This document shows positions 10,833 to 32,107 of a stretch of 32,107 nucleotides of DNA, one piece after another. The position numbers and the translations under genes are program-made. Within the stretch, counting starts at the first letter, position 1, and every line of letters begins with the position of its first letter. The notes below the pieces were generated by a model that was not told the origin of the DNA, did not search any database, and saw only the letters and a program-made list of their open reading frames with translations. Source of the DNA: Crocinitomicaceae bacterium. GTDB taxonomy: Bacteria > Bacteroidota > Bacteroidia > Flavobacteriales_D > CAJJDF01. The stretch is taken from contig JAHEIE010000023.1 of the NCBI GenBank assembly GCA_024639505.1, positions 32 through 32,138 on the forward strand, given 5' to 3'.

Positions 10833-13304
10833 ATGAAAAACTTCATTGCATCAATTATTGTAGCCTTATCGGCATTCGTAGGATTTTCGCAAGTATACGA
10901 TCCAGTAGACTGGGAGTATTCTGTAGAACAAAATGGAAATGAGGCAACTTTAATTTTTACAGCAACAATTGAAGAAGGATGGCACGTGTATTCGCAAGTA
11001 TTGGAAAGTGAAGACGGACCAATAGCAACTGAAGTAACTTTCACTCCAAATCCAAACTACGAATTGTTAGGAAAAACTACCGAATCTAAAACCTACAATG
11101 AGTACGACCCTAATTTTGAGATGAATCTCACTTTTTTTAAAACCAAAGCTGTTTTAAAACAAAAAGTAAAACTAAAAACGGACAAACCCTTTAATATCGA
11201 AGGAGGGGTTTACTTCATGGTTTGTAACGAATCTATGTGTTTGCCGCCAAGTGACGAACGACATAATTTTGAGCTAAATGGAGATAATTCAACCCAAGAA
11301 AAAACAGATGCTCCTGGACTGAAATTAGTCGAAGGCGATGAGGTTGTAACCCAACAAGAAACGAATAGTGGATCAGGAATAGAAGATCCGATTGACTGGG
11401 AGATTACATCGAAAAAAATTGGAAAAAATACATTTGAAATATCGGCAAAAGCAAAGCTTGATAAGCATTGGCATATCTACGCAAACAGGCAAGTAAGTGA
11501 TATGATTATTCCTACGGAATTTTACATTGCTGATTCAATGGGAAAGCTTCAAGGAGAAATAAAGGAGTTGGGTGACATTCATGAAGTATACGAGGAAGTA
11601 AACGATGCAGATAGCAGATATTATGAAGATGAGGTAACGTTTATTCAGCAATTTCAATCCGCAGAAGGACTCGCAAATTTCACTGTAGAGTTATCCTATA
11701 TGCTTTGCGATACAAGTCACTGCTTAGCTCCAACTTACGAAGAAATAAAAGTAGACGTAGCTACCGGAAACATCATTAAAGGAGCAACTTCGAGTGTTGA
11801 CAATAGTGGAGCATTAGAGATTTTGCCGGCAATGGAAAATTTTGATTTGGACAATCCAATTGCTGATTGTGGAGGAGAATCAACAAATTCAGAAGAAAAA
11901 AAAGGTCTTTGGCTGCTCTTTCTTTTGGGAATTGGTGGAGGACTTTTTGCAATATTAACTCCGTGTGTATATCCTATGATTCCTTTAACGGTAAGTTTCT
12001 TCACCAAAGGTGGTCAAGATTCCAAAGGTGGTTTTGGTAAAGCCGCTTTGTACGGATTGTTTATCTTTTTAATTTACACCTCGTTAAGTTTACCATTTTG
12101 GTTTACAGATGCCGACCCGCAAGTACTAAACGGAATAGCAACAAATCCGATTTTGAACCTAGTGTTTTTTGCTGTCTTTGTATTTTTCGCCTTTTCCTTT
12201 TTGGGTTATTATGAGCTTACACTTCCTTCAAAATGGAGCAACAAAGTAGATTCTGCCTCTAACGTAGGAGGAATTATTGGAATAGCATTAATGGCATTAA
12301 CTCTTGCCTTGGTTTCATTTTCTTGTACTGGACCAATTTTGGGTTCTGTATTAGCTGGAGTGTTAAAAGATGGACCATTACCTCTCACAGTTGCTTTGGC
12401 TGGTTTCGGACTAGCACTTGGGTTGCCTTTCGCAATTTTTGCTGCTTTCCCTAGTTTAATGAAAAAACTGCCTTCTTCTGGGGGCTGGTTGAACTCAGTA
12501 AAAGTAGTTCTTGGATTTTTAGAGTTAGCTCTAGCTATTAAATTCTTATCCAATGCCGATTTAGTAATGCAGTGGGGATTAATAAAAAGAGAAGTATTCT
12601 TTGCATTATGGATTCTTATCGGATTAGGATTAGTAGCCTATTTATTTGGGCTCATCAAGTTTCCTCACGATCACGGAAAAACAAAATTATCTTTCTTTAG
12701 AGTGTCGTTTGCAATTATGATACTTGCTTTTGTGGTTTATTTAATTCCAGGATTAACTGGTGGAGAAAATGCAAACAGAAAACTAGTAAGTGGATTTCCA
12801 CCACCGATGCATTACAGTTATTTTGGTGGAGAAATGTTCCATGCTTACAAAGATTATGAAGAAGGAAGAAAAGCAGCCGAAGAACAAGGAAAACCAATGT
12901 TGGTTGATTTTACAGGATGGGCATGTGTAAACTGTAGAGAAGTTGAAGAAAATATTTGGCCAAACGAAGAGGTAATGAAGTTGATTTCAGAAGAATTTAT
13001 CTTGGTTTCATTGTACGTAGATGAAGACATTGAACTTGCAAAAGAAGATCAGGGAGAAGTGGATATTAAATACGACAACGGTAAGGTGAAAAAGAAGAAA
13101 ATTAAAACAGTGGGTGACAAGTGGTTTACATTTGAAACTATCGTGTTTAAAAACAACGCTCAGCCGAGGTATATTTTGTTGTCAGATGACGGAAGATTGC
13201 TAAATAACCCAATCAGTTATGCCGACATCAAAAAAGGTGGTGGAGCTCAATTTTATGCAGATTTCTTGAAATGTGGATTGGAGGCTTACAAAACGATGAA
13301 TTAG
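10833..13304 (+). CDS. dsbD: DsbD-type thiol:disulfide reductase with two N-terminal DsbD domains
   Basis: DsbD carries electrons from cytoplasmic thioredoxin across the inner membrane to periplasmic partners. The 823-residue protein has a signal peptide (about 1-20) and two consecutive periplasmic DsbD N-terminal-like domains (about 22-150 and 185-315). Each has a paired-cysteine motif (MVCNESMCLPP; MLCDTSHCLAP). Then comes a multi-helix membrane domain (about 355-650) with its redox pair Cys378 (LTPCVYPMIP) and Cys498 (FSCTGPILG), and last a thioredoxin-fold domain with Cys698-Val-Asn-Cys701. Classical DsbD is near 550 residues with one N-terminal domain, so the extra copy explains the length. 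The M23 peptidase gene follows after 22 bp, probably in the same transcript. Confidence 0.9.
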   Translation: MKNFIASIIVALSAFVGFSQVYDPVDWEYSVEQNGNEATLIFTATIEEGWHVYSQVLESEDGPIATEVTFTPNPNYELLGKTTESKTYNEYDPNFEMNLTFFKTKAVLKQKVKLKTDKPFNIEGGVYFMVCNESMCLPPSDERHNFELNGDNSTQEKTDAPGLKLVEGDEVVTQQETNSGSGIEDPIDWEITSKKIGKNTFEISAKAKLDKHWHIYANRQVSDMIIPTEFYIADSMGKLQGEIKELGDIHEVYEEVNDADSRYYEDEVTFIQQFQSAEGLANFTVELSYMLCDTSHCLAPTYEEIKVDVATGNIIKGATSSVDNSGALEILPAMENFDLDNPIADCGGESTNSEEKKGLWLLFLLGIGGGLFAILTPCVYPMIPLTVSFFTKGGQDSKGGFGKAALYGLFIFLIYTSLSLPFWFTDADPQVLNGIATNPILNLVFFAVFVFFAFSFLGYYELTLPSKWSNKVDSASNVGGIIGIALMALTLALVSFSCTGPILGSVLAGVLKDGPLPLTVALAGFGLALGLPFAIFAAFPSLMKKLPSSGGWLNSVKVVLGFLELALAIKFLSNADLVMQWGLIKREVFFALWILIGLGLVAYLFGLIKFPHDHGKTKLSFFRVSFAIMILAFVVYLIPGLTGGENANRKLVSGFPPPMHYSYFGGEMFHAYKDYEEGRKAAEEQGKPMLVDFTGWACVNCREVEENIWPNEEVMKLISEEFILVSLYVDEDIELAKEDQGEVDIKYDNGKVKKKKIKTVGDKWFTFETIVFKNNAQPRYILLSDDGRLLNNPISYADIKKGGGAQFYADFLKCGLEAYKTMN

Positions 13305-20157: not shown

Positions 20158-21015
20158 ATGAAAACAACAAAATTAACTTTAGGAAAGTACTTAATACTTT
20201 CTTTTTTGAGCTTAGGATTAGTCTTTACTAGTTGTAAAAAAGAAGAGGAAACAACAGCAGAAGAACCAACAGAAAAGCCATTTAGTGCACATGCACAGGC
20301 TCAAGTTCCTTTTATGCTTAAAGAAACAGGTGAGCTTTGCGGACCATGCGGAAGTTGGGGCTGGACAGCTTGGGAAGGGGTAATCAACAACCTAAAGGGA
20401 AAAGCCCTTTTATTCTCACAGTACAGTACATTTTTTGTTTCTAATTCTCATTTTAAAAATCAAGAATTAGACCCAGCAAACTCTGTGATGGAAACTTTTA
20501 GAGCCAACTTTCCATTGTCTACAGCCAAGCCATCTTGGTACATGAATGGAGATTTTTATCAGTACAACGATTACAGCGGAGCTCAGGCTGATGCTTTGGT
20601 TTCTATTGCCACACCACCTGCCGATGTAAATGTTTCTGCAGCATACAGAATTAAATGGGAAGGAGACAAAATAACAGTAGACGCTCAAGCTAAATTGTAT
20701 AAAAATTTGAACGGTAACTATTACATGGGGGTATACTTAATTGAGGATAAAGCAAAAGGAACTCAACAGGGTCACGCTCTAGGAAGTAGCGTGGAAGTAG
20801 AACATCATGTGGTAATGAGAGGTTCAGTTGAAGGTGGAGTTTGGGGTAAAGAAATTATTTCGAGCTCGGCTGATGCAGGAGCTACAATCAATAAGTCATA
20901 TTCGGTAACGGTTCCCTCTTTTTACAAAAAAGAAAATATCTCTGTGGGAGTTATTATTTGGAAGAAAAATGGGACAAAGTATTTTTATGAAAATGCTGCA
21001 ACTAACCAAGAATAA
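20158..21015 (+). CDS. Omp28-like lipoprotein with CGPC motif (tandem copy 1)
   Basis: A 285-residue lipoprotein (Cys26 in FTSCKK, then an acidic/Lys linker). Just after the linker is a thioredoxin-type motif C61-G-P-C64 in KETGELCGPCGSWGW, followed by an alpha/beta region like that of Omp28-related proteins; the C-terminal part is beta-rich (VNVSAAYRIKWEGDKITVDAQAKLY ... ENISVGVIIWKKNGTKYFYE). It is probably attached to the outer membrane. The CGPC pair suggests thiol or disulfide activity, or a retained structural disulfide. The following gene is a close paralogue with the same architecture. A terminator follows 17 bp after the stop, so this copy is its own transcript. The Omp28 label is moderately sure, the lipoprotein assignment very sure. 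Confidence 0.82.
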   Translation: MKTTKLTLGKYLILSFLSLGLVFTSCKKEEETTAEEPTEKPFSAHAQAQVPFMLKETGELCGPCGSWGWTAWEGVINNLKGKALLFSQYSTFFVSNSHFKNQELDPANSVMETFRANFPLSTAKPSWYMNGDFYQYNDYSGAQADALVSIATPPADVNVSAAYRIKWEGDKITVDAQAKLYKNLNGNYYMGVYLIEDKAKGTQQGHALGSSVEVEHHVVMRGSVEGGVWGKEIISSSADAGATINKSYSVTVPSFYKKENISVGVIIWKKNGTKYFYENAATNQE

Positions 21016-21069: not shown

Positions 21070-21191
21070 ATGTCATAAATTGAGAGCTCTTTTTTAATTC
21101 TTGAGGCAAGAAGAGAACTAAAAACTGGCTTTATTTTAGTTTTATGGAAAAAATAATAAGTAACTTAAGCCCTCATAAAAAATACAAACAC

Positions 21192-22064
21192 ATGAAAACA
21201 TCAACATTATCATTTGGAAAGTACATTGTGCTTTCAGTTTTAGCACTGGGAATGACCATTTCTAGTTGCAAAAAAGAAGAGGAAGAAGTAATTGAACCAA
21301 AGACTGGAACAACTGCACCAGAACCAACTTTTAGCGCTCATGCACAAGTTCAGGTACCAATTGTATTGAAAGAAACTGGAGAACTTTGCCCACCTTGTGG
21401 AGGTTGGGGATGGACCAATTGGGAAACTTTGATAAACGATTACAGCTCAACGGCTTTTAAATGGGCCAATTATAGCAACTATTTTGTATCAAATTCATTT
21501 TTTGTAAACTCGGAATTGGATCCAGCTAATTCGGTTCAAAATGCATTTCAAGCCAACTTCCCTTACGGAGGATCAAAGCCTTTAATTTATGTAAACGGAA
21601 GTCAAGCAAGTTCCAATACAGGAACAGCTCAGGTAACAGATTCTAAGGTAAAAATTGATCAATCCATTAATACCCCTGCTACAAACGTAAAAGTATCTGC
21701 TGCCTACAAAATTAAGTGGGAAGGAAATAAAATTACTGTAGACGCACAAGCTAAATTTTACCAAAATACAGGCGGTGCTTATTACATGGGTGTTTACCTT
21801 GTAGAAGATGAAGTTATGGCGACACAAAGCGGTCAGTCGGGAATAGTAGCTCATCACCTTGCCATGAGAGGCTCTGTAGAAGGAGGAGTTTGGGGAAAAG
21901 AAATTGTTTCTGGAACCGTTGCAGCTGACGATGTATTTGACGAAACTTACACAACTACAATCCCATCTACTTACAACAAAGAAAACATTACTGTTGGGGT
22001 AATTATTTGGAGAAAGAACGGAACGAAGTATTTTTATGAAAATGCTGCTACCAACCAAGAGTAA
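21192..22064 (+). CDS. Omp28-like lipoprotein with CPPC motif (tandem copy 2)
   Basis: Paralogue of the preceding gene: 290 residues, the same lipoprotein start (MKTSTLSFGKY versus MKTTKLTLGKY; Cys26 in both) and C66-P-P-C69 in KETGELCPPCGGWGW. The C-terminal half is highly similar (RGSVEGGVWGKEI and ENAATNQE are shared). An upstream ATG at 21144 would add 16 residues before the signal peptide; alignment with copy 1 shows the start is the ATG at 21192. The X-X of the CxxC differs between copies (GP versus PP), which in thioredoxin-fold proteins changes redox potential, so the copies may have diverged in activity. Confidence 0.82.
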   Translation: MKTSTLSFGKYIVLSVLALGMTISSCKKEEEEVIEPKTGTTAPEPTFSAHAQVQVPIVLKETGELCPPCGGWGWTNWETLINDYSSTAFKWANYSNYFVSNSFFVNSELDPANSVQNAFQANFPYGGSKPLIYVNGSQASSNTGTAQVTDSKVKIDQSINTPATNVKVSAAYKIKWEGNKITVDAQAKFYQNTGGAYYMGVYLVEDEVMATQSGQSGIVAHHLAMRGSVEGGVWGKEIVSGTVAADDVFDETYTTTIPSTYNKENITVGVIIWRKNGTKYFYENAATNQE

Positions 22065-25341: not shown

Positions 25342-27267
25342 TTAACTCAATAGCTCAACCGTTTCTTCCCACAGCCCTTCTTTTTCCGAAAGAGAATTTT
25401 TAAGCTCTTTGTATTCTTCAATTATTTGATTTGCTTTTTCCTCGTCAGAATAATCTAGATTGAGCATTTTGGCATCATATTCTTTGATTTTCTCCTCTAG
25501 CTTCTCAATTTCTCTCTCAAGTTTCTGTACTTTGTTTTGAAGTTTTTTCTGTTCTTTTTGTTCTTCGTAACTCAGTTTGGCTTCTTCTTTTTCTTCCTTT
25601 TTTTCTTCAATTACTTCAGCCTTTTTCTTTCCAGTATTCTCAAATAAGGCAATGCTTTCTTTTTTCTTTCTCTTAAGAAAACTACTTACATCCTCGTGAT
25701 GAACGCTTATTTGTTCGTTGTTAATTTCAAACACTCTATTGGTTAGCATATCCAAGAAATCTCTGTCGTGAGATACCACCAAGAGAGTTCCATCAAACTT
25801 CATTAGCGCATCTTTCAGTACATTTTTACTCGCAATATCTAAGTGATTGGTTGGCTCATCCAAAATAAGAAAGTTGTGAGGTTCGAGGAGTAGTTTACAC
25901 AAAGCTAGTCGAGTTTTTTCTCCACCCGATAGCACTTTCACCTTTTTGTCTTGATCTTCTCCACTGAATAAAAATGAACCCAAAATATTTCGAACTTTTG
26001 TTCTCATGTCCCCGACAGCAATGTCATCTATCGTTTCAAAAATCGTTTTGTTTCCATTTAGTTTTTCTGCTTCGTCTTGTGCAAAATAACCTACCGAAAT
26101 GTTGTGCCCAAGCTCTAATTCTCCTCCTTGGTAATTTTCATCCCCTACCAACAATTTGATGATGGTGGTTTTTCCTACTCCATTTTTCCCAATCAATGAA
26201 ATCCTGTCCTGGGCGTTAATCATCAAATCTGCGTTGTTCAGAATTTTTTTGTCGGGAAATTCTTTGGTAAGTCCCTCAAATTTGGCAGCAAATTTTCCAG
26301 ATCTTGGCGCAGGCTGAAATCTAAAATTGAGTCCTCCGGAATCTACCTGATCCACTTCTACAATTTCTAGTTTATCCAGTTTTTTTATCAACGACTGAGC
26401 AAAAGCAGCTTTGTTCTTTTTTGCTCTAAATTTATTGATGAGCTCCTCCGTTTCTTTGATGTACTTTTCTTGATTTTTGGCAGCAGCCTTTTGCACGATC
26501 AATTCCTCTTCTCGAATTACTTTGTATTTGGAGTAAGAAAATTTGTAATCATAAATTTTTCCGGCATTTATCTCAATTGTTCTGTTGGTTACAAAGTCCA
26601 GAAATGCTCTGTCGTGCGAAATAAGAATGATAGCTCCGTTATAGTTTTTAAGAAAATCTTCTAACCATTGTATCGATTCTATATCGAGGTGATTGGTTGG
26701 CTCATCTAACAAAAGAACATCAGGCTGTTCCAACAAAATTTTACACAACTCCACTCTCATTTTCCACCCTCCAGAAAACTCACTCATTTTTCGTTCAAAA
26801 TCGGGAGAGTTAAACCCAAGACCAAGTAAAAATTTCTCTATGTTTTCTCTCATGTTAAAACCACCTTGGAGAGAAAACTGTTCATTTAGTTCATTCAACT
26901 CTTCAATGAGTTGCATGTAAGAATCACTTTCGTAGTCGGTTCTGGTTTGTAACAAGTGATTGATTTCATCTAGCCTTTGCTCAATGGTGGTTATTTTGGA
27001 ATTAGCGCTCTCCACTTCGTCAATGATCCGGGCTCCATTGTTGTGCTTCATTTCTTGCGGCAAATACCCAATAGTTACTCCTTTTTGTGAGCTAACAGTT
27101 CCGCCAGAGGGAGGAAGCAATCCCATTATTGCCTTGAGCATTGTAGATTTTCCTGCGCCATTTTTACCAACAAGGCCAATTCGGTCCTTTTTGTCAATCA
27201 TAAATGACACATTATCAAAGAGATCCTTGCCTCCTAAAAACACCGAAAGATTATTTACTGAAACCAT
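25342..27267 (-). CDS. ABC-F family ATPase (translation factor type)
   Basis: Soluble tandem ABC protein with no membrane domain; ABC-F proteins bind the ribosomal E site and relieve stalling or protect against antibiotics. The 641 residues contain two ATPase domains. The first has Walker A GKNGAGKST (34-42), signature SGGW and LLLDEPTNHLDIES; the second has Walker A GKNGVGKTT, signature LSGGE and LILDEPTNHLDIAS. A linker with Arg/Lys-rich helices lies between (RAKKNKAAFAQSLIKKLDKL). A C-terminal coiled coil (about 545-641, Lys/Glu-rich) resembles Uup-type members. I cannot say which ABC-F subfamily; a housekeeping role is more likely than drug resistance. The start lies four bases after a TACCTTTG promoter element. 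Confidence 0.94.
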   Translation of the reverse strand: MVSVNNLSVFLGGKDLFDNVSFMIDKKDRIGLVGKNGAGKSTMLKAIMGLLPPSGGTVSSQKGVTIGYLPQEMKHNNGARIIDEVESANSKITTIEQRLDEINHLLQTRTDYESDSYMQLIEELNELNEQFSLQGGFNMRENIEKFLLGLGFNSPDFERKMSEFSGGWKMRVELCKILLEQPDVLLLDEPTNHLDIESIQWLEDFLKNYNGAIILISHDRAFLDFVTNRTIEINAGKIYDYKFSYSKYKVIREEELIVQKAAAKNQEKYIKETEELINKFRAKKNKAAFAQSLIKKLDKLEIVEVDQVDSGGLNFRFQPAPRSGKFAAKFEGLTKEFPDKKILNNADLMINAQDRISLIGKNGVGKTTIIKLLVGDENYQGGELELGHNISVGYFAQDEAEKLNGNKTIFETIDDIAVGDMRTKVRNILGSFLFSGEDQDKKVKVLSGGEKTRLALCKLLLEPHNFLILDEPTNHLDIASKNVLKDALMKFDGTLLVVSHDRDFLDMLTNRVFEINNEQISVHHEDVSSFLKRKKKESIALFENTGKKKAEVIEEKKEEKEEAKLSYEEQKEQKKLQNKVQKLEREIEKLEEKIKEYDAKMLNLDYSDEEKANQIIEEYKELKNSLSEKEGLWEETVELLS

Positions 27268-27271
27268 GCTG

Positions 27272-27279
27272 CAAAGGTA
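27272..27279 (-). promoter_or_regulatory. -7 element directly before the ABC-F start codon
   Basis: TACCTTTG on the minus strand, exact TAnnTTTG, followed by CAGC and the ATG. The nearest TTG upstream is 26 bases away, longer than ideal. Predicts a leaderless or very short leader, as for the beta-barrel gene at 18919. Confidence 0.5.
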
Positions 27280-27366
27280 GGTAAAGGTTTCTGTTTATTA
27301 AAGCACAATAAGTAAATGAACTTTTGACACTTATCTGTGTACAGATTCTCATAAACAAAATCCATT

Positions 27367-28224
27367 ATGAAAAAAACAACGTTTCTATTGATGCTCATCT
27401 CTTCCGTCACTTTTGGTCAAACCAAAAAAATATTTCACAAAAGTCACAGTGGTAAACCGGAGACAATTTTCCTTGATGAAAAAAATAATTTTGGACCCGG
27501 AATGGCTCCAGTTCGATACAGAACTCCCGAGAGCAACATCAAATTAAATTATATAAAAACAAATTATCACGTTTATCCTAAGGTTATTCTCGACAGAGCA
27601 AATAAAACAATGCGTTTTCACGACACCAAAGACTCGCTTATTGGCTGCGATAGAGATTACAGAGAATACCTCAATCATGGTTCGTTAGTTTTTGATGTGG
27701 TGACTTCCGAGTTTTGGGTGTATCAATTGTATTTTTTTCGATGGGATAAATCACAAGCGAGAGCTGCCCGGTTTTTGGCAGTTTCAGATTCACTTCTTCA
27801 TTGGGAAACCAATCCAAGATTCATTCGGAATTCCAACAACTTTATAAGAGATGGCAATAATTATCGCATCTTAATGACATATCCTATTTTGGATTATTCA
27901 ATAACAAGAAATTTGAAACCAGAGCTAATAAATCCAAAAGAATCGTTTCCGATTATAATTGGAGATAAAATCAAGAAAAAAGAAAAAAAGAAGCGCAAAT
28001 TAATTCTCGAAGAGAATCAATTAGAAAAAGATAAAATTCAGGAAAACAATGACCAGAAAAAACAGGATGAATTGGTGCTTCTATCAAAGCCAAAAACTCC
28101 TCCTTTTGATTTGTGGTTAGTGTGGATGGGGATTTTCTTTTTTGTATTTTCCATCTTTATGTTTTTAGGTGTAAAACAAATTGTGAAAGAAGAGATAAAT
28201 AACTTAAACCTAAGAAATAAATGA
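27367..28224 (+). CDS. Unrecognised secreted protein with C-terminal membrane helix
   Basis: I do not recognise this 285-residue protein. It has a signal peptide (about 1-17, SVTFGQ), a globular part with many aromatic and basic residues (about 20-195), a charged Lys/Glu-rich probably coiled segment (about 200-235), and one membrane helix near the end (about 249-272, WLVWMGIFFFVFSIFMFLGV) with a short tail. The layout suggests a periplasmic domain tethered to the inner membrane. Its last codons overlap the start of the DoxX-like gene by 4 bp (ATGA), so the two are translationally coupled and may form a complex. Confidence 0.78.
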   Translation: MKKTTFLLMLISSVTFGQTKKIFHKSHSGKPETIFLDEKNNFGPGMAPVRYRTPESNIKLNYIKTNYHVYPKVILDRANKTMRFHDTKDSLIGCDRDYREYLNHGSLVFDVVTSEFWVYQLYFFRWDKSQARAARFLAVSDSLLHWETNPRFIRNSNNFIRDGNNYRILMTYPILDYSITRNLKPELINPKESFPIIIGDKIKKKEKKKRKLILEENQLEKDKIQENNDQKKQDELVLLSKPKTPPFDLWLVWMGIFFFVFSIFMFLGVKQIVKEEINNLNLRNK

Positions 28225-29345
28225 AAGGATTTTTGTGGGTTTTTACATCTGTATTTTGTCTCTTTTTCGTTGTTACTTTCGAGTTTGAATATTCTATTTT
28301 ACCCGAACTTTATAAATTAGTTAATCCATTTTTTGAGGCCTTAATTCGGTTTTCTGGAACTGTGTTTTTTGGCCTTGATTCTGATTTTAATTCCGAAATT
28401 TCGTCAGATTCATTGGGTCTTTTTGTTCATCTTTTCAATCTGTTTTTTATCTCTTTTGGGATGGCGCTCCTTGTAACAGAGGTTTTTATGTTTAATAGCG
28501 TAAATTTACGCCAAAAGTTATTGCAAATATTGATATACTACTTATCTTTACAACTGTTAATTTACGGCTTCGACAAGTTGTTTAAGGGTCAGTTTTTTTA
28601 TCCAGAACCCAATATTTTACATACAAATCTAAAGGATTTATCACCGGATATTTTGTACTGGAGTACAATGGGTATTTCCAGAGGATATTCTATGTTTTTG
28701 GGTGGGGCAGAGTTGCTTGTTGCTTTTTTGTTGTGGTTTCGAAACACCCGTTTGATAGGATTGATAATTGGAACAGGAATCATGATCAATGTTGTAGCCG
28801 TTAATTTTGGTTTTGATATTTCGGTGAAGGTGTATAGTTGCTTTTTGTTAGCCAGTTTTCTTTTGGTTTTAAGTCCTTATTTTTCATTTTTAATTTCAGT
28901 TTTTTCTCTAAAAATTCCTAGCGAATTCATACAAGTTCCGCAGCCAAATCCGAGATTCAATTTCAAACTGAAAAAGGTGATGAAATGGAGTGTAATTTGC
29001 TTGCTACTTGCTGAAGGATTCTTTCCTTATTTTTCCACTGGAAATTGGAATGACGATACGGCAAAAAGACCAAAATTTCATGGAGCCTATTCTGTTTTGC
29101 CCAATAGATTTGGTATAGAGAAACTCTACATACATCGAGCTGGTTATCTTATTTTGGAGGATGAAAATAAAGTCAAAGAAGATTTTCAGATGGAATTAGA
29201 CACCATGAATCAAGAAATCGTTTTATGGGATTACCGGAATAAAAAAGAATCGATGTGGCGATATATTTCTCAAGAAGACCGTTTAATATGTCTCTTTTCT
29301 AAAAGCGATTCTACTCAATATTTTCAATGCAAATTGATTCATTAA
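28221..29345 (+). CDS. DoxX-like multi-pass membrane protein with C-terminal soluble domain
   Basis: A 374-residue protein with about seven membrane helices. The stretch from GFDKLFKGQF through PDILYWSTMGISRGYSMFLGGAELL to MINVVAVNFGFDISVKVYS closely follows a Bacteroidota family of DoxX-like membrane proteins, in which a (P/F)-E-P motif, a G-x-x-E helix and N-x-x-x-(F/Y)-D are recurrent. The C-terminal 100 residues (FHGAYSVL ... YLILEDENKV ... EIVLWDY) form the beta-rich periplasmic domain usual in that family. Function is unknown; DoxX relatives are linked to quinone- or thiol-dependent redox steps. Coupled to the preceding gene by a 4-bp overlap. Confidence 0.75.
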   Translation: MKGFLWVFTSVFCLFFVVTFEFEYSILPELYKLVNPFFEALIRFSGTVFFGLDSDFNSEISSDSLGLFVHLFNLFFISFGMALLVTEVFMFNSVNLRQKLLQILIYYLSLQLLIYGFDKLFKGQFFYPEPNILHTNLKDLSPDILYWSTMGISRGYSMFLGGAELLVAFLLWFRNTRLIGLIIGTGIMINVVAVNFGFDISVKVYSCFLLASFLLVLSPYFSFLISVFSLKIPSEFIQVPQPNPRFNFKLKKVMKWSVICLLLAEGFFPYFSTGNWNDDTAKRPKFHGAYSVLPNRFGIEKLYIHRAGYLILEDENKVKEDFQMELDTMNQEIVLWDYRNKKESMWRYISQEDRLICLFSKSDSTQYFQCKLIH

Positions 29346-29422
29346 GTTTGAATTTTTGCTCCTTTAAGATTGAAAAAAGAGGGATTGGGTATCGGATTTT
29401 CATTAAAAACAAAAAAATATAA

Positions 29423-29430
29423 TATCTTTG
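29423..29430 (+). promoter_or_regulatory. Candidate -7 element of the Cys-rich mini-lipoprotein gene
   Basis: TATCTTTG, exact TAnnTTTG, 38 bases before the ATG at 29469. No clear TTG at the expected distance. Confidence 0.45.
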
Positions 29431-29468
29431 AGGGTAGAACTTCGCTTTAAAACGAAAAAAACCAAATT

Positions 29469-29687
29469 ATGAAAAGAATAGCTTTATTAGTAGGACTTAC
29501 TTTAGTGATTTTTGCATCTTGTAAAAAAGAATATTCTTGTGAATGTACAAGAACAGATTCTTCGAAAACATTACCAACGGATTCTTCTATAGAGACATTG
29601 AATGGGAAAAAGGCGGATGTAATTGAGTATTGTGAAAAAGGAGATACAACATATGGTACAATTACAATCAAATGTGAGGCAAAATAA
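29469..29687 (+). CDS. Small Cys-rich lipoprotein
   Basis: A 72-residue protein with a lipoprotein signal (Cys18 in FASCKK). The mature part is only about 54 residues and holds four further cysteines: Y-S-C-E-C (Cys24, Cys26), one near residue 56 (EYCEKG) and one near the end (IKCEAK). They could form two disulfides. The start KK-x-Y-x-C-x-C resembles many short Bacteroidota lipoproteins of unknown role. It has its own promoter element and a strong terminator 22 bp after the stop, so it is a single-gene transcript. The compact layout supports it as a real gene despite its size. Confidence 0.8.
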   Translation: MKRIALLVGLTLVIFASCKKEYSCECTRTDSSKTLPTDSSIETLNGKKADVIEYCEKGDTTYGTITIKCEAK

Positions 29688-29709
29688 CTTTATCGATTAA
29701 AACCATTTC

Positions 29710-29742
29710 AAAAGGAAAGAGCACGCTCTTTCCTTTTTTTTT
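29710..29742 (+). terminator. Rho-independent terminator after the mini-lipoprotein
   Basis: 12-bp stem (29710-29721 with 29726-29737), loop CACG, followed by a T-run to 29742. Just upstream of the DoxX-thioredoxin gene start. Confidence 0.9.
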
Positions 29743-29754
29743 GAAAGCATTTTT

Positions 29755-30624
29755 ATGAAATTTATCGTCAAATTTTACATAATAATTATCCTTGGAATAA
29801 CTGGTTTTTCTTTGGTTCAAAATTGTTTTGAGTTTGAACTTAAACTTTACGAAACCTACCTTACCCCTCACTTTTTATCTGGAGTTGTGGCAAGAGTTGT
29901 TCTTTCGCTCTATTTTGTAATTGCTTTGTTCTGGATGTTTGGCAAAGTATCTAGAATTATCAAAACCGCTACTCTTTTTCTTGTTTCACTTCCTATTTAC
30001 TTTTTTGTTTTTGATGTTTTGAAAGATGAAATCATTGTGCTTTCCACACTTTTTAATTTCTCATCAGGATTACAAATTCCGTTCTTTCTTCTTGGCCTCG
30101 TTGCAATAATTTTCGCTGGAAAGAATAGTTTTAGCTTTCTGCCAAATCATCTTTGGGTTCCCTTGACAAAATATTTTTTTTCTATAGGAATGATTGTAAT
30201 TGTTTTTGTAGCAAATCCTTTGTTTTTGGATGAATTCACTGATGAATCGCAACCCTTTGGCTCAGCCGAAATTTTAGAAAGCGAATTAGGCGAAATCTCA
30301 ACCGATACTGAGCTTAGAGCTTATTTTAGCACTTCCTGTCCGTATTGCGAAATGGCAGGTAAAAGACTCATGCTTTTGAAAAAAAATTACGCAAATTTTC
30401 CGAGTGTAAAGCTTTACTTTTTAGGAACGCAAGAAGGTGTAGATTGGTTTTTGGAGGATACAAAAACAGAGTTTGATTTCGAAATAATGGAAACCGAACA
30501 ATTCTTAAGAATAACAAGTGGATCCTTTCCCAAATTCATTCATATCAAGAATGGAACCCCTAATTTCCTGTACTCTGGAAGAACATTCAATTACCTTTCG
30601 CCCAATATTATTTCCCAGAAATAG
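29755..30624 (+). CDS. DoxX/MauE-like membrane protein with C-terminal thioredoxin domain (BT_3928-like)
   Basis: A 289-residue fusion. Residues 1-160 hold four to five membrane helices of the DoxX/MauE type. Residues about 175-285 are a thioredoxin fold with the active-site motif C195-P-Y-C198 in AYFSTSCPYCEMAGKRL; a cis-Pro position is SFPKF. CPYC is the glutaredoxin-type dipeptide. In Bacteroidota a family of DoxX proteins with this added domain is known by name (BT_3928) but not in detail; MauE- and VKOR-like relatives reoxidise or reduce periplasmic thiols. This protein is shorter than typical BT_3928 members (about 360-380). Its ATG comes 12 bp after the terminator of the mini-lipoprotein. 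Confidence 0.82.
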   Translation: MKFIVKFYIIIILGITGFSLVQNCFEFELKLYETYLTPHFLSGVVARVVLSLYFVIALFWMFGKVSRIIKTATLFLVSLPIYFFVFDVLKDEIIVLSTLFNFSSGLQIPFFLLGLVAIIFAGKNSFSFLPNHLWVPLTKYFFSIGMIVIVFVANPLFLDEFTDESQPFGSAEILESELGEISTDTELRAYFSTSCPYCEMAGKRLMLLKKNYANFPSVKLYFLGTQEGVDWFLEDTKTEFDFEIMETEQFLRITSGSFPKFIHIKNGTPNFLYSGRTFNYLSPNIISQK

Positions 30625-30697
30625 AATATAACCACAATTTCTTTCCTACTCATTTATCTTCTTTTTCTGCCTATTGTAAAATGAGAATAGTATCTTT

Positions 30698-32107
30698 ATG
30701 CAAATTTTTACAGCCTTGGAAAATCCTAAAAAATATACCGTAACAGCAGCACTTCCTTATGCTAACGGACCTTTGCATCTTGGTCATTTGGCCGGAGCTT
30801 ATTTGCCTGCCGATATCTATGTTCGTTATTTACGATTGAATAACCGCGATGTTGCATTCGTTTGTGGATCGGACGAACATGGTGCTGCCATAACTATAAG
30901 GGCCAAAAAAGAGGGAGTAACGCCTCAACAAATTGTTGATAAATACCACGAGATAAACAAAAAAGCTTTTCAAGACATTGGAATTGATTTTTCAATTTAT
31001 GACCGAACGTCCTCTTCGGAGCACCATAAAATGGCGCAAGATTTTTTCTTGGATTTGAACGAGAAAAATACGTTTACGAAGGAAACAAACGAACAATATT
31101 ATGACGAGGAAAACAATCAGTTTTTGGCTGATAGATACATCACAGGGGAATGTCCCAAATGTAATAATCCAAGTGCTTACGGAGATCAATGTGAAAAATG
31201 CGGAAGTGATTTAAGTCCTTTGGATTTGATAAATCCTGTTTCGGCAATTAGCGGAAACAAGCCTGTGCTGAAAGAAACATCTCACTGGTTTTTACCAATG
31301 GAAAGGCACGAAGAATGGCTAACTTCTTGGATACAAGAAGGAACACTTGATGGAAAACAATTACACAATCCTAAAGAATGGAAAAACCAAGTGACTGGGC
31401 AAGTGATGAGCTGGATTAATTCCGGACTAAAACCAAGAGCAATGACTCGCGACCTAGACTGGGGAGTGAAAGTACCACTCGAAAATGCCGAAGGAAAAGT
31501 TTTGTACGTATGGCTAGATGCCCCAATTGGTTATATCTCGGCAACAAAAAAATGGGCAGATTCTGAGGGAAAGAACTGGGAAGATTATTGGAAATTGAAT
31601 AATGAAACGGGTGAAGCAGAAACAAAATTGGTTCATTTCATTGGAAAAGATAACATAGTGTTTCACGCTATTATTTTTCCAATCTTGTTGAAACAGCAAG
31701 GAGAGTATGTGTTGCCAGACAATGTTCCTGCCAATGAATTTTTGAACTTAGAAGGAGACAAATTATCTACATCAAGAAATTGGGCAGTATGGCTTCATGA
31801 ATACCTAGAGGGATTTCCCGAAAAAGCGGATGAATTGAGGTATGTTCTTACTTCTATTTTACCCGAAAACAAGGATTCGGAATTTACATGGAAAGATTAC
31901 CAAGATAGAATAAACAATGAACTAGTTGCTATTTTTGGAAACTTCGTAAACCGAGTAGTTGTTCTTACAAATAAATACTACGATGGAGTAGTTCCAGAAT
32001 CAGCAGAAATACTAGATTCTGACAAAACAATTATAGAACAAGTAAAGAAAACGGCTATACAAATTGGCGAAAGTATAGAGGCATATCGATTCAGAGAGGC
32101 ACTTGCT
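30698..32107 (+). CDS. metG: Methionyl-tRNA synthetase, partial (C-terminus off window)
   Basis: Charges tRNA-Met for translation initiation and elongation. The first 470 codons are present and the frame is open to the last base; bacterial enzymes run to about 550-700 residues. The class I motif is H27-L-G-H30 in [12 protein letters not shown], the zinc knuckle is C152-x2-C155-x9-C165-x2-C168, and the KMSKS loop is K355-L-S-T-S359 in GDKLSTSRN. The start at 30698 gives the expected N-terminus before [13 protein letters not shown]; an ATG at 30681 is in another frame. The sequence TATCTTT directly before the ATG may be part of a close promoter, but this is weak. Confidence 0.97.

Follow-up and report, generated by a model that had tools for sequence, protein, structure and literature searches.

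A stretch of 32,107 nucleotides from a Crocinitomicaceae genome (contig JAHEIE010000023.1; hereafter the window) contains four adjacent, little-known envelope genes, here named P0001 to P0004. These genes constitute two separate, widely conserved two-gene modules, which were found side by side in two genomes of one genus only. In module A, a 12-residue N-terminal peptide is near-fixed on proteins that are otherwise variable, and it tracks one clade of membrane proteins, that of P0002, through the Bacteroidota; we regard this pattern as clearly pointing to a recognition event that is still uncharacterised. In module B, a small cysteine-rich lipoprotein is paired with a membrane-bound thioredoxin-like protein, and a terminator-like hairpin between their genes is part of the conserved arrangement. 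The evidence consists of observed gene pairing, co-occurrence, conserved residues and a conserved hairpin, together with a computed fold for P0002. Our confidence in the best explanation, both modules taken together, is evenly balanced.

Two modules rather than one cluster

The original prediction, made from the window sequence, had suggested that the four genes might form a single periplasmic redox module. Its four open reading frames were all found where it had placed them in the window genome (2.16 Mb in 119 contigs), and none of the four proteins matches a Pfam or NCBIfam family above cut-off. Relatives of all four are present in other genomes. Among 60 genomes, including the window's own, P0002 has relatives in 12, P0001 in 5 and P0004 in 16 (E 1e-3), and P0003 has relatives in 17 (E 0.01).

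In these relatives the four genes part company, the outcome that the original prediction had itself named as contrary to its proposal. Genomes and loci sampled in the comparison carry labels beginning with G and L, respectively (for example, genome G003 and locus L070). By profile check, a P0002 gene is also found at 2 of 17 module-B loci, namely those of the window genome and of G003, which belong to the same genus; conversely, relatives of P0003 or P0004 are also found at 1 of 80 module-A loci (L070, the G003 contig). P0001 and P0002 also occur together in the three remaining genomes of the genus, and P0003/P0004 adjoin them in G003 only. The two pairs lie on different contigs in G001, and no match to P0003 or P0004 was found in G002. 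Between P0002 and metG, where the window has P0003 and P0004, G002 encodes a 254-residue, cysteine-containing protein (L005:595-1359). A single four-gene redox module would account for the adjacency seen in the window and in G003, but it is very hard to reconcile with 15 of 17 module-B loci without P0002 and 79 of 80 module-A loci without relatives of P0003 or P0004. We consider it highly improbable, and have rejected it because the pairs separate in nearly all loci examined. Nor does anything in the P0001-P0002 pair point to the thiol chemistry proposed for the cluster: no column of the P0001 family with at least 60% conservation (63 proteins) is a cysteine, and none of the invariant or nearly invariant columns of P0002 (80 proteins) is one.

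Table 1. Features of the two modules, in window coordinates.
Feature	Position	Strand	Description
Module A	27367-29345		P0001 and P0002
P0001	27367..28224	+	285 residues; signal peptide, then the conserved dodecapeptide at the mature N-terminus, a variable body and a membrane helix near the C-terminus
Conserved motif QTKKIFHKSHSG	27418..27453	+	Residues 18-29 of P0001; predicted mature N-terminus
Predicted C-terminal membrane helix of P0001	28111..28173	+	Residues 249-269; direct reading of the sequence
P0002	28221..29345	+	374 residues; membrane protein with a putative DoxX/GGCX-like fold and C-terminal beta domain
Lys119 codon of P0002	28575..28577	+	Lysine of the GxxK motif
Predicted periplasmic loop of P0002	28581..28679	+	Residues 121-153 (FKxQF..PEPN...KDILYWS..G.S)
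C-terminal beta domain of P0002	29070..29342	+	Residues 284-374
Module B	29469-30624		P0003 and P0004
P0003	29469..29687	+	72 residues; mini-lipoprotein with four cysteines beyond the lipidated one
Terminator-like hairpin followed by T run	29710..29737	+	In the gap between P0003 and P0004
P0004	29755..30624	+	289 residues; putative MauE-like membrane domain followed by a thioredoxin-like domain
CPYC active-site motif of P0004	30337..30348	+	Residues 195-198

A conserved N-terminal peptide and its probable membrane partner

The signal peptide and membrane helix assigned earlier to P0001 are both read directly from the sequence, and the coupling to P0002 is borne out by an ATGA overlap in a pair that turns out to be conserved. 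Following the signal peptide, the predicted mature N-terminus of the P0001 family is QTKxI[AS]x[KR]SHSG. In 84 proteins, positions 1 to 6 are occupied by Q (84), T (84), K (77), a variable residue, I (81), and A (61) or S (16); positions 7 to 12 are occupied by H, F, Y or L (47, 22, 8 and 7), K (65) or R (17), S (84), H (84), S (79) and G (84). The regular expression used for the search required [AGSTC]Q as well as [KRHLQ]S[HAS][SAG]G; the free evidence for the motif therefore comes mainly from T2, K3, I5 and H10. The residue preceding the glutamine is A, S or G in 84/84 proteins, although [AGSTC]Q belonged to the selection pattern. In P0001 this glutamine comes straight after the predicted signal peptidase I site. 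A glutamine at the mature end is described as a rule in Bacteroidetes, where it is commonly cyclised (PMC5837995). The leading glutamine is thus unremarkable by itself; it is the following eleven residues that are remarkable.

Apart from the motif, these 84 proteins are variable. They range from 89 to 416 residues, and 69 of them have a hydrophobic stretch beyond residue 30. Three tandem motif copies are found in G016. The 416-residue protein (L133:1309-2559, the same as L009) is a double-length form with two QTKxIAHKSHxG units, the second of which follows an internal membrane helix and a signal-peptide-like stretch. A profile search of the PDB with the P0001 family gave no credible match, and no occurrence of the motif strings was found in the one open-access library searched. 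Within the scope of the Pfam and NCBIfam libraries and that literature library, the family thus appears to be undescribed.

A scan of 84,980 species genomes yielded 174 relatives of P0002, and all counts on 80 proteins or loci refer to the best 80 of these 174. The best 80 records are from Bacteroidota, save one labelled Chlorobiota and one unclassified; among them, the closest named records are metagenome-assembled genomes of Flavobacteriales. Chryseobacterium, Flavobacterium and Brumimicrobium are represented among the relatives of P0002. A motif protein adjoins P0002 in 74/80 loci. Of the six exceptions, two have P0002 near a contig end (L103, L123), one has its partner cut by a contig end (L140), and three have P0002 without a neighbouring partner (L085, L088, L115). 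G065, of which L088 is apparently contig C60, has two motif proteins on another contig. G007 also has a P0002 without a neighbouring partner, and one motif protein elsewhere on the chromosome.

Co-occurrence was assessed in 299 genomes of the order (motif at E 0.01, P0002 relative at E 1e-20). The motif is present in 57 of these genomes and P0002 in 66; both are present in 55, P0002 only in 11, the motif only in 2, and neither in 231 (Fisher p 3e-46, uncorrected for kinship). Among the 11 genomes with P0002 only, visual inspection shows a diverged neighbour in at least five (G012, G028, G035, G205, G277), and no diverged partner was seen in the stretches examined from G235 and G243. In the two genomes with the motif only, the motif proteins are 118 and 82 residues long. 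In a sample of 326 genomes from the phylum, the motif is found in two, which are exactly those with a high-scoring P0002 (420 and 503 bits); 32 other genomes have weaker P0002 relatives (256 bits or less), and the motif is in none of them. A quick tree of 98 proteins, the only tree made, sets the 80 P0002 proteins apart from 18 broader relatives, with a Shimodaira-Hasegawa-like approximate likelihood ratio (SH-aLRT) support of 99.

The broader relatives form a Bacteroidota family of about 420-550 residues. These 18 proteins share D63, Y115, G116, K119, Q124, W147 and G151 with P0002, as well as S153, G161, E164, N195, V202 and G288, but lack a motif protein and most of the clade-specific periplasmic residues. 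Residues were considered clade-specific when kept in at least 88% of the partner-linked clade and in at most 60% of the 18 broader relatives. They include K122, E129, N131, D143, N277, D278, D279, H287, H305 and D321, with the caveat that K122 is still found in 8/18 broader relatives and D279 in 7/18. All ten are on the predicted periplasmic side of P0002, and five are acidic, which would suit a basic motif peptide. The loop formed by residues 121-153 contains many invariant columns and several clade-specific residues; its side of the membrane is assigned from the structural model and the charges.

We now turn to what P0002 might do with this peptide. P0002 would be an inner-membrane protein of a DoxX/GGCX-like fold that binds the mature N-terminus of P0001, (pyro)Glu-Thr-Lys-x-Ile-Ala-x-Lys-Ser-His-Ser-Gly, and recognises it with both its periplasmic face and its C-terminal beta domain. 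This peptide would serve as a tag for docking, carried by partners that vary in all other respects and are mostly anchored in the membrane, in the manner of the propeptide on substrates of the vitamin K-dependent carboxylase GGCX. By this analogy, we consider it likely that the N-terminus of P0001 docks on P0002.

P0001 might instead be a constitutive subunit or assembly factor of P0002. In that case its N-terminus would be permanently packed into P0002 without any modification, and its variable body would act in the periplasm as a tether or a sensor. The genomic linkage, with 67/79 motif copies no more than 4.5 kb from P0002, would agree with a subunit just as it would with a substrate. In many loci a lone P0001 ends a few bases from the start of P0002, and near-invariant residues may merely reflect packing. 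On the other hand, extra copies in tandem or unlinked, with different bodies, are found in several genomes (three in G016, two unlinked in G217, one in G108), and the spread in length looks more like several clients with one recogniser. We thus regard a permanent subunit as a serious contender that nevertheless falls short of an even chance. It is also conceivable that the conserved peptide, with its His, Lys and Ser residues, binds a metal or haem and that P0001 passes a cofactor to P0002. The invariance of His10, the frequent His7 and the clade-specific His287 and His305 of P0002 would agree with this notion, but Phe, Tyr or Leu replaces His7 in 37/84 proteins, there is no conserved cysteine, and no known metal-site family was matched in Pfam; we consider it improbable.

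Several observations weigh against the recognition of P0001 as a docked client, in addition to the ambiguous linkage. No partner of P0002 was recognised at L085 and L115. A model of a P0001-like protein has a low predicted template-modelling (pTM) score of 0.49, and a fold search with it gave no match (best E 0.19). Mutual information between the motif and P0002 columns in 74 pairs revealed nothing interpretable, the top pairs resting on rare outliers. Two other results concern module A as a whole. No natural fusion of P0001 and P0002, judged by the motif, was seen in the 80 loci, and no conserved third gene accompanies the pair: the largest neighbour cluster covers 16/77 loci, and 5 of its 8 members shown sit at one repeated place.

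Fold and possible chemistry of P0002

The computed model of P0002 is confident, with a predicted local distance difference test (pLDDT) of 93.2 and a pTM of 0.89. We read it as having seven helices that span the membrane and a C-terminal beta domain that lies outside, and the positive charges fit this reading. A Foldseek search of the PDB with this model places GGCX at all of ranks 1-11, over about 380-400 columns (E 5e-3 to 3.3e-2); GGCX, which has an HTTM domain (PF05090), provides the best solved fold matches, which are weak. In GGCX, K218 deprotonates reduced vitamin K, a long loop after K218 caps the pocket, and the substrates carry a conserved N-terminal propeptide, according to PMC12589487, which also names A214, K218 and W223; Lys218 is mentioned in PMC9146348 as well. 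P0002 has three corresponding traits. First, its GxxK lysine, Lys119, is present in 80/80 relatives and has the spacing of K218 (A214, K218, W223); bacterial HTTM proteins have AG[LI]AK...W, and AGxxK is found in 11/12 Bacteroidota HTTM proteins. The equivalence of Lys119 and K218 rests on this motif spacing, not on superposition. Second, a long loop follows the GxxK motif, like the GGCX cap. Third, the partners of P0002 have a conserved N-terminal sequence.

The proposed kinship with GGCX is weakened by a number of results. No Foldseek E-value is below 0.001 and the TM-score is about 0.3. GGCX is not among the 50 VIA matches listed for P0002; the membrane part is barely tested there, however, because the beta domain fills all 50. 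Neither GGCX nor any other credible match was found with a P0002-family sequence profile against the PDB, and hhalign gave 8% for P0002 against 12 Bacteroidota HTTM proteins (6% against a set of MauE-thioredoxin proteins). None of the 80 P0002 members matches HTTM at E 0.1, nor was a PF05090 match found in the window's own genome. The beta domain is lipocalin-like, a further difference from GGCX: its best VIA matches, each over 88 aligned positions, are Tp0751 (Z 9.0, root-mean-square deviation 2.7) and a Bacteroides member of the lipocalin family (Z 8.9, root-mean-square deviation 3.0).

The label "DoxX-like", originally given to both P0002 and P0004, is weak for both proteins by profile matches. 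P0002 itself matches no Pfam family at E 1, and hence neither DoxX (PF07681) nor MauE (PF07291). At E 0.1, 8 of its 80 relatives reach MauE (best 8e-4), 3 reach DoxX (best 4e-4) and 16 reach NCBIfam RclC (best 3e-4). P0002 thus resembles these families in these weak profile matches and in a small membrane core with GxxK, but is itself below all curated cut-offs and differs in its extra helices, its beta domain and its peptide partner. GGCX may simply be the sole solved member of a wide DoxX-type fold.

The most likely chemistry would be that of a menaquinol-using membrane enzyme, acting on or through the docked partner. The presence of MenB in the genome makes it likely that menaquinone is available, and indicates a likely pathway but no more. 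An enzymatic activity of P0002 remains a tentative proposal, which we rate below an even chance. P0002 is probably not a glutamyl carboxylase. None of the columns that reach 60% conservation in the P0001 family (63 proteins) is a glutamate, so that no carboxylation target is seen, and a pair like Asn159-His160 in the glutamate pocket of GGCX is absent from the invariant or nearly invariant columns of P0002 and from columns 58-75, the equivalent position being taken without an alignment. Gamma-carboxylation proper is thus thought unlikely. The boldest proposal likens P0002 and P0001 to the vitamin K-dependent propeptide system, of which they would be a bacterial version: a menaquinol-driven membrane enzyme with a GGCX-like fold would modify envelope proteins tagged N-terminally with pyroglutamyl-TKxIAxKSHSG; this we deem unlikely. 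If the resemblance to GGCX were real, it would imply a peptide-tag-directed, quinone-linked membrane system in common environmental bacteria, such as Chryseobacterium, Flavobacterium and Brumimicrobium, where it would be genetically testable. In the open-access library searched, no paper was found that mentions both HTTM and DoxX, nor did a combined search with gamma-carboxylase return one.

A mini-lipoprotein, a thioredoxin-like protein and the hairpin between their genes

Module B was sampled at 30 P0004-family loci, the best-scoring one per genome in 30 genomes (L149-L177 and L020). In 17/30 loci a mini-lipoprotein is encoded directly upstream on the same strand, with a gap of 17-78 nt by the listed starts of the open reading frames, and these 17 loci represent 9 genera and 5 families. 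A second pair in G007 (L025) is outside this count. The description of P0003 as a four-cysteine mini-lipoprotein was accurate: beyond the lipobox cysteine it has four more, which are invariant in 22/22 aligned relatives, not all of which are beside a thioredoxin gene. A PDB profile search with the P0003 family gave no credible match. The view of P0004 as a DoxX-thioredoxin fusion was right as to its thioredoxin-like C-terminus. In an alignment of 13 relatives, no columns are invariant except Cys195, Cys198 and Pro259, the last presumably in cis, and a PDB search with the family profile retrieves chains of the thioredoxin fold, the best being plasmoredoxin (E 3.7e-4). The membrane part may be MauE-like; P0004 itself reaches this Pfam family at E 0.51 only, and 7/13 relatives match it (best 1.3e-20).

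The terminator-like hairpin before the last gene was found as predicted. On its own this site is not significant, with 2 sites of this type in positions 27200-30800 and 2.2 in shuffles. Across genomes, however, a hairpin followed by a T run is found in the gap between the two genes in 15/17 module-B loci (with the start of the P0004-like gene set by hand for L150 and L155), compared with 7/137 co-directional gaps of 17-110 nt, 7/40 convergent gaps and 6/850 shuffles. The control gaps are from other genomes (L069-L148), and the shuffles preserve base composition only. The hairpin sequences differ among loci while their position is kept, ending 8-42 nt ahead of the second start codon. Because the hairpin recurs at this junction far more often than in control gaps, it is part of the conserved arrangement of module B. 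The original prediction had taken the terminator as an argument against a link between P0003 and P0004; its recurrence in 15/17 loci reverses that argument.

Module B would fit a disulfide system that has a client to itself. The membrane thioredoxin P0004 would make or repair the two disulfides of P0003, its dedicated substrate, and a leaky terminator would set a high ratio of lipoprotein to enzyme. The earlier suggestion that the mini-lipoprotein is a client gains support from a gene pairing kept across genera and families. We slightly favour the view that P0004 acts on P0003, and are a little more confident that termination between the two genes is leaky. By analogy, the nearest functional parallel would be MauE, which is speculated to aid disulfide formation in the beta subunit of methylamine dehydrogenase, a role itself called speculative (PMC7794033); there, too, a MauE-like membrane part and a thioredoxin-like part (MauE and MauD) would serve a supposed dedicated, cysteine-rich substrate. 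Module B differs in having one fused protein, a presumed lipoprotein client and a terminator between the genes. With a small putative disulfide client, the oxidoreductase proposed to serve it and a terminator-like hairpin conserved between their genes, it would offer a simple case for a set stoichiometry.

P0003 and P0004 might alternatively be neighbours without a functional link, their transcription being separated by the terminator. A working terminator would indeed separate both genes, and three further points go against a dedicated pair: MauE-thioredoxin proteins occur without the lipoprotein in 13/30 loci, P0003-like proteins are also found away from P0004-like genes, and P0004 itself lacks the GxxK lysine. 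Nevertheless, the pair is kept with the lipoprotein always upstream and on the same strand, and the short distance from the hairpin to the start codon leaves little room for a promoter. We therefore consider unlinked neighbours unlikely, though clearly less so than a single four-gene module, and prefer P0003 as the client of P0004.

P0003-like lipoproteins also occur in tandem at L049, L060 and L064, with 2 to 4 in the stretches examined. A longer MauE-thioredoxin protein of the same architecture as P0004, retrieved with P0004 as query, is exemplified at L027; it differs in its length of about 360 residues and in its genomic place, and no mini-lipoprotein was seen at L027. Its gene lies beside what we take to be tpiA and a DUF1599-like gene. 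Ahead of P0003, TATCTTTG at window positions 29423-29430 (+) fits TAnnTTTG, the consensus of the Bacteroidota -7 promoter element; this would give module B a promoter of its own. Elsewhere in the window, positions 10833-13304 (+) encode a thiol:disulfide interchange protein of the DsbD type (PF02683, E 2.7e-21). It may be a redox partner of P0004, which it could supply or compete with. Positions 20158-21015 and 21144-22064 (+) code for two adjacent members of the Omp28 family (PF11551, E about 1e-12).

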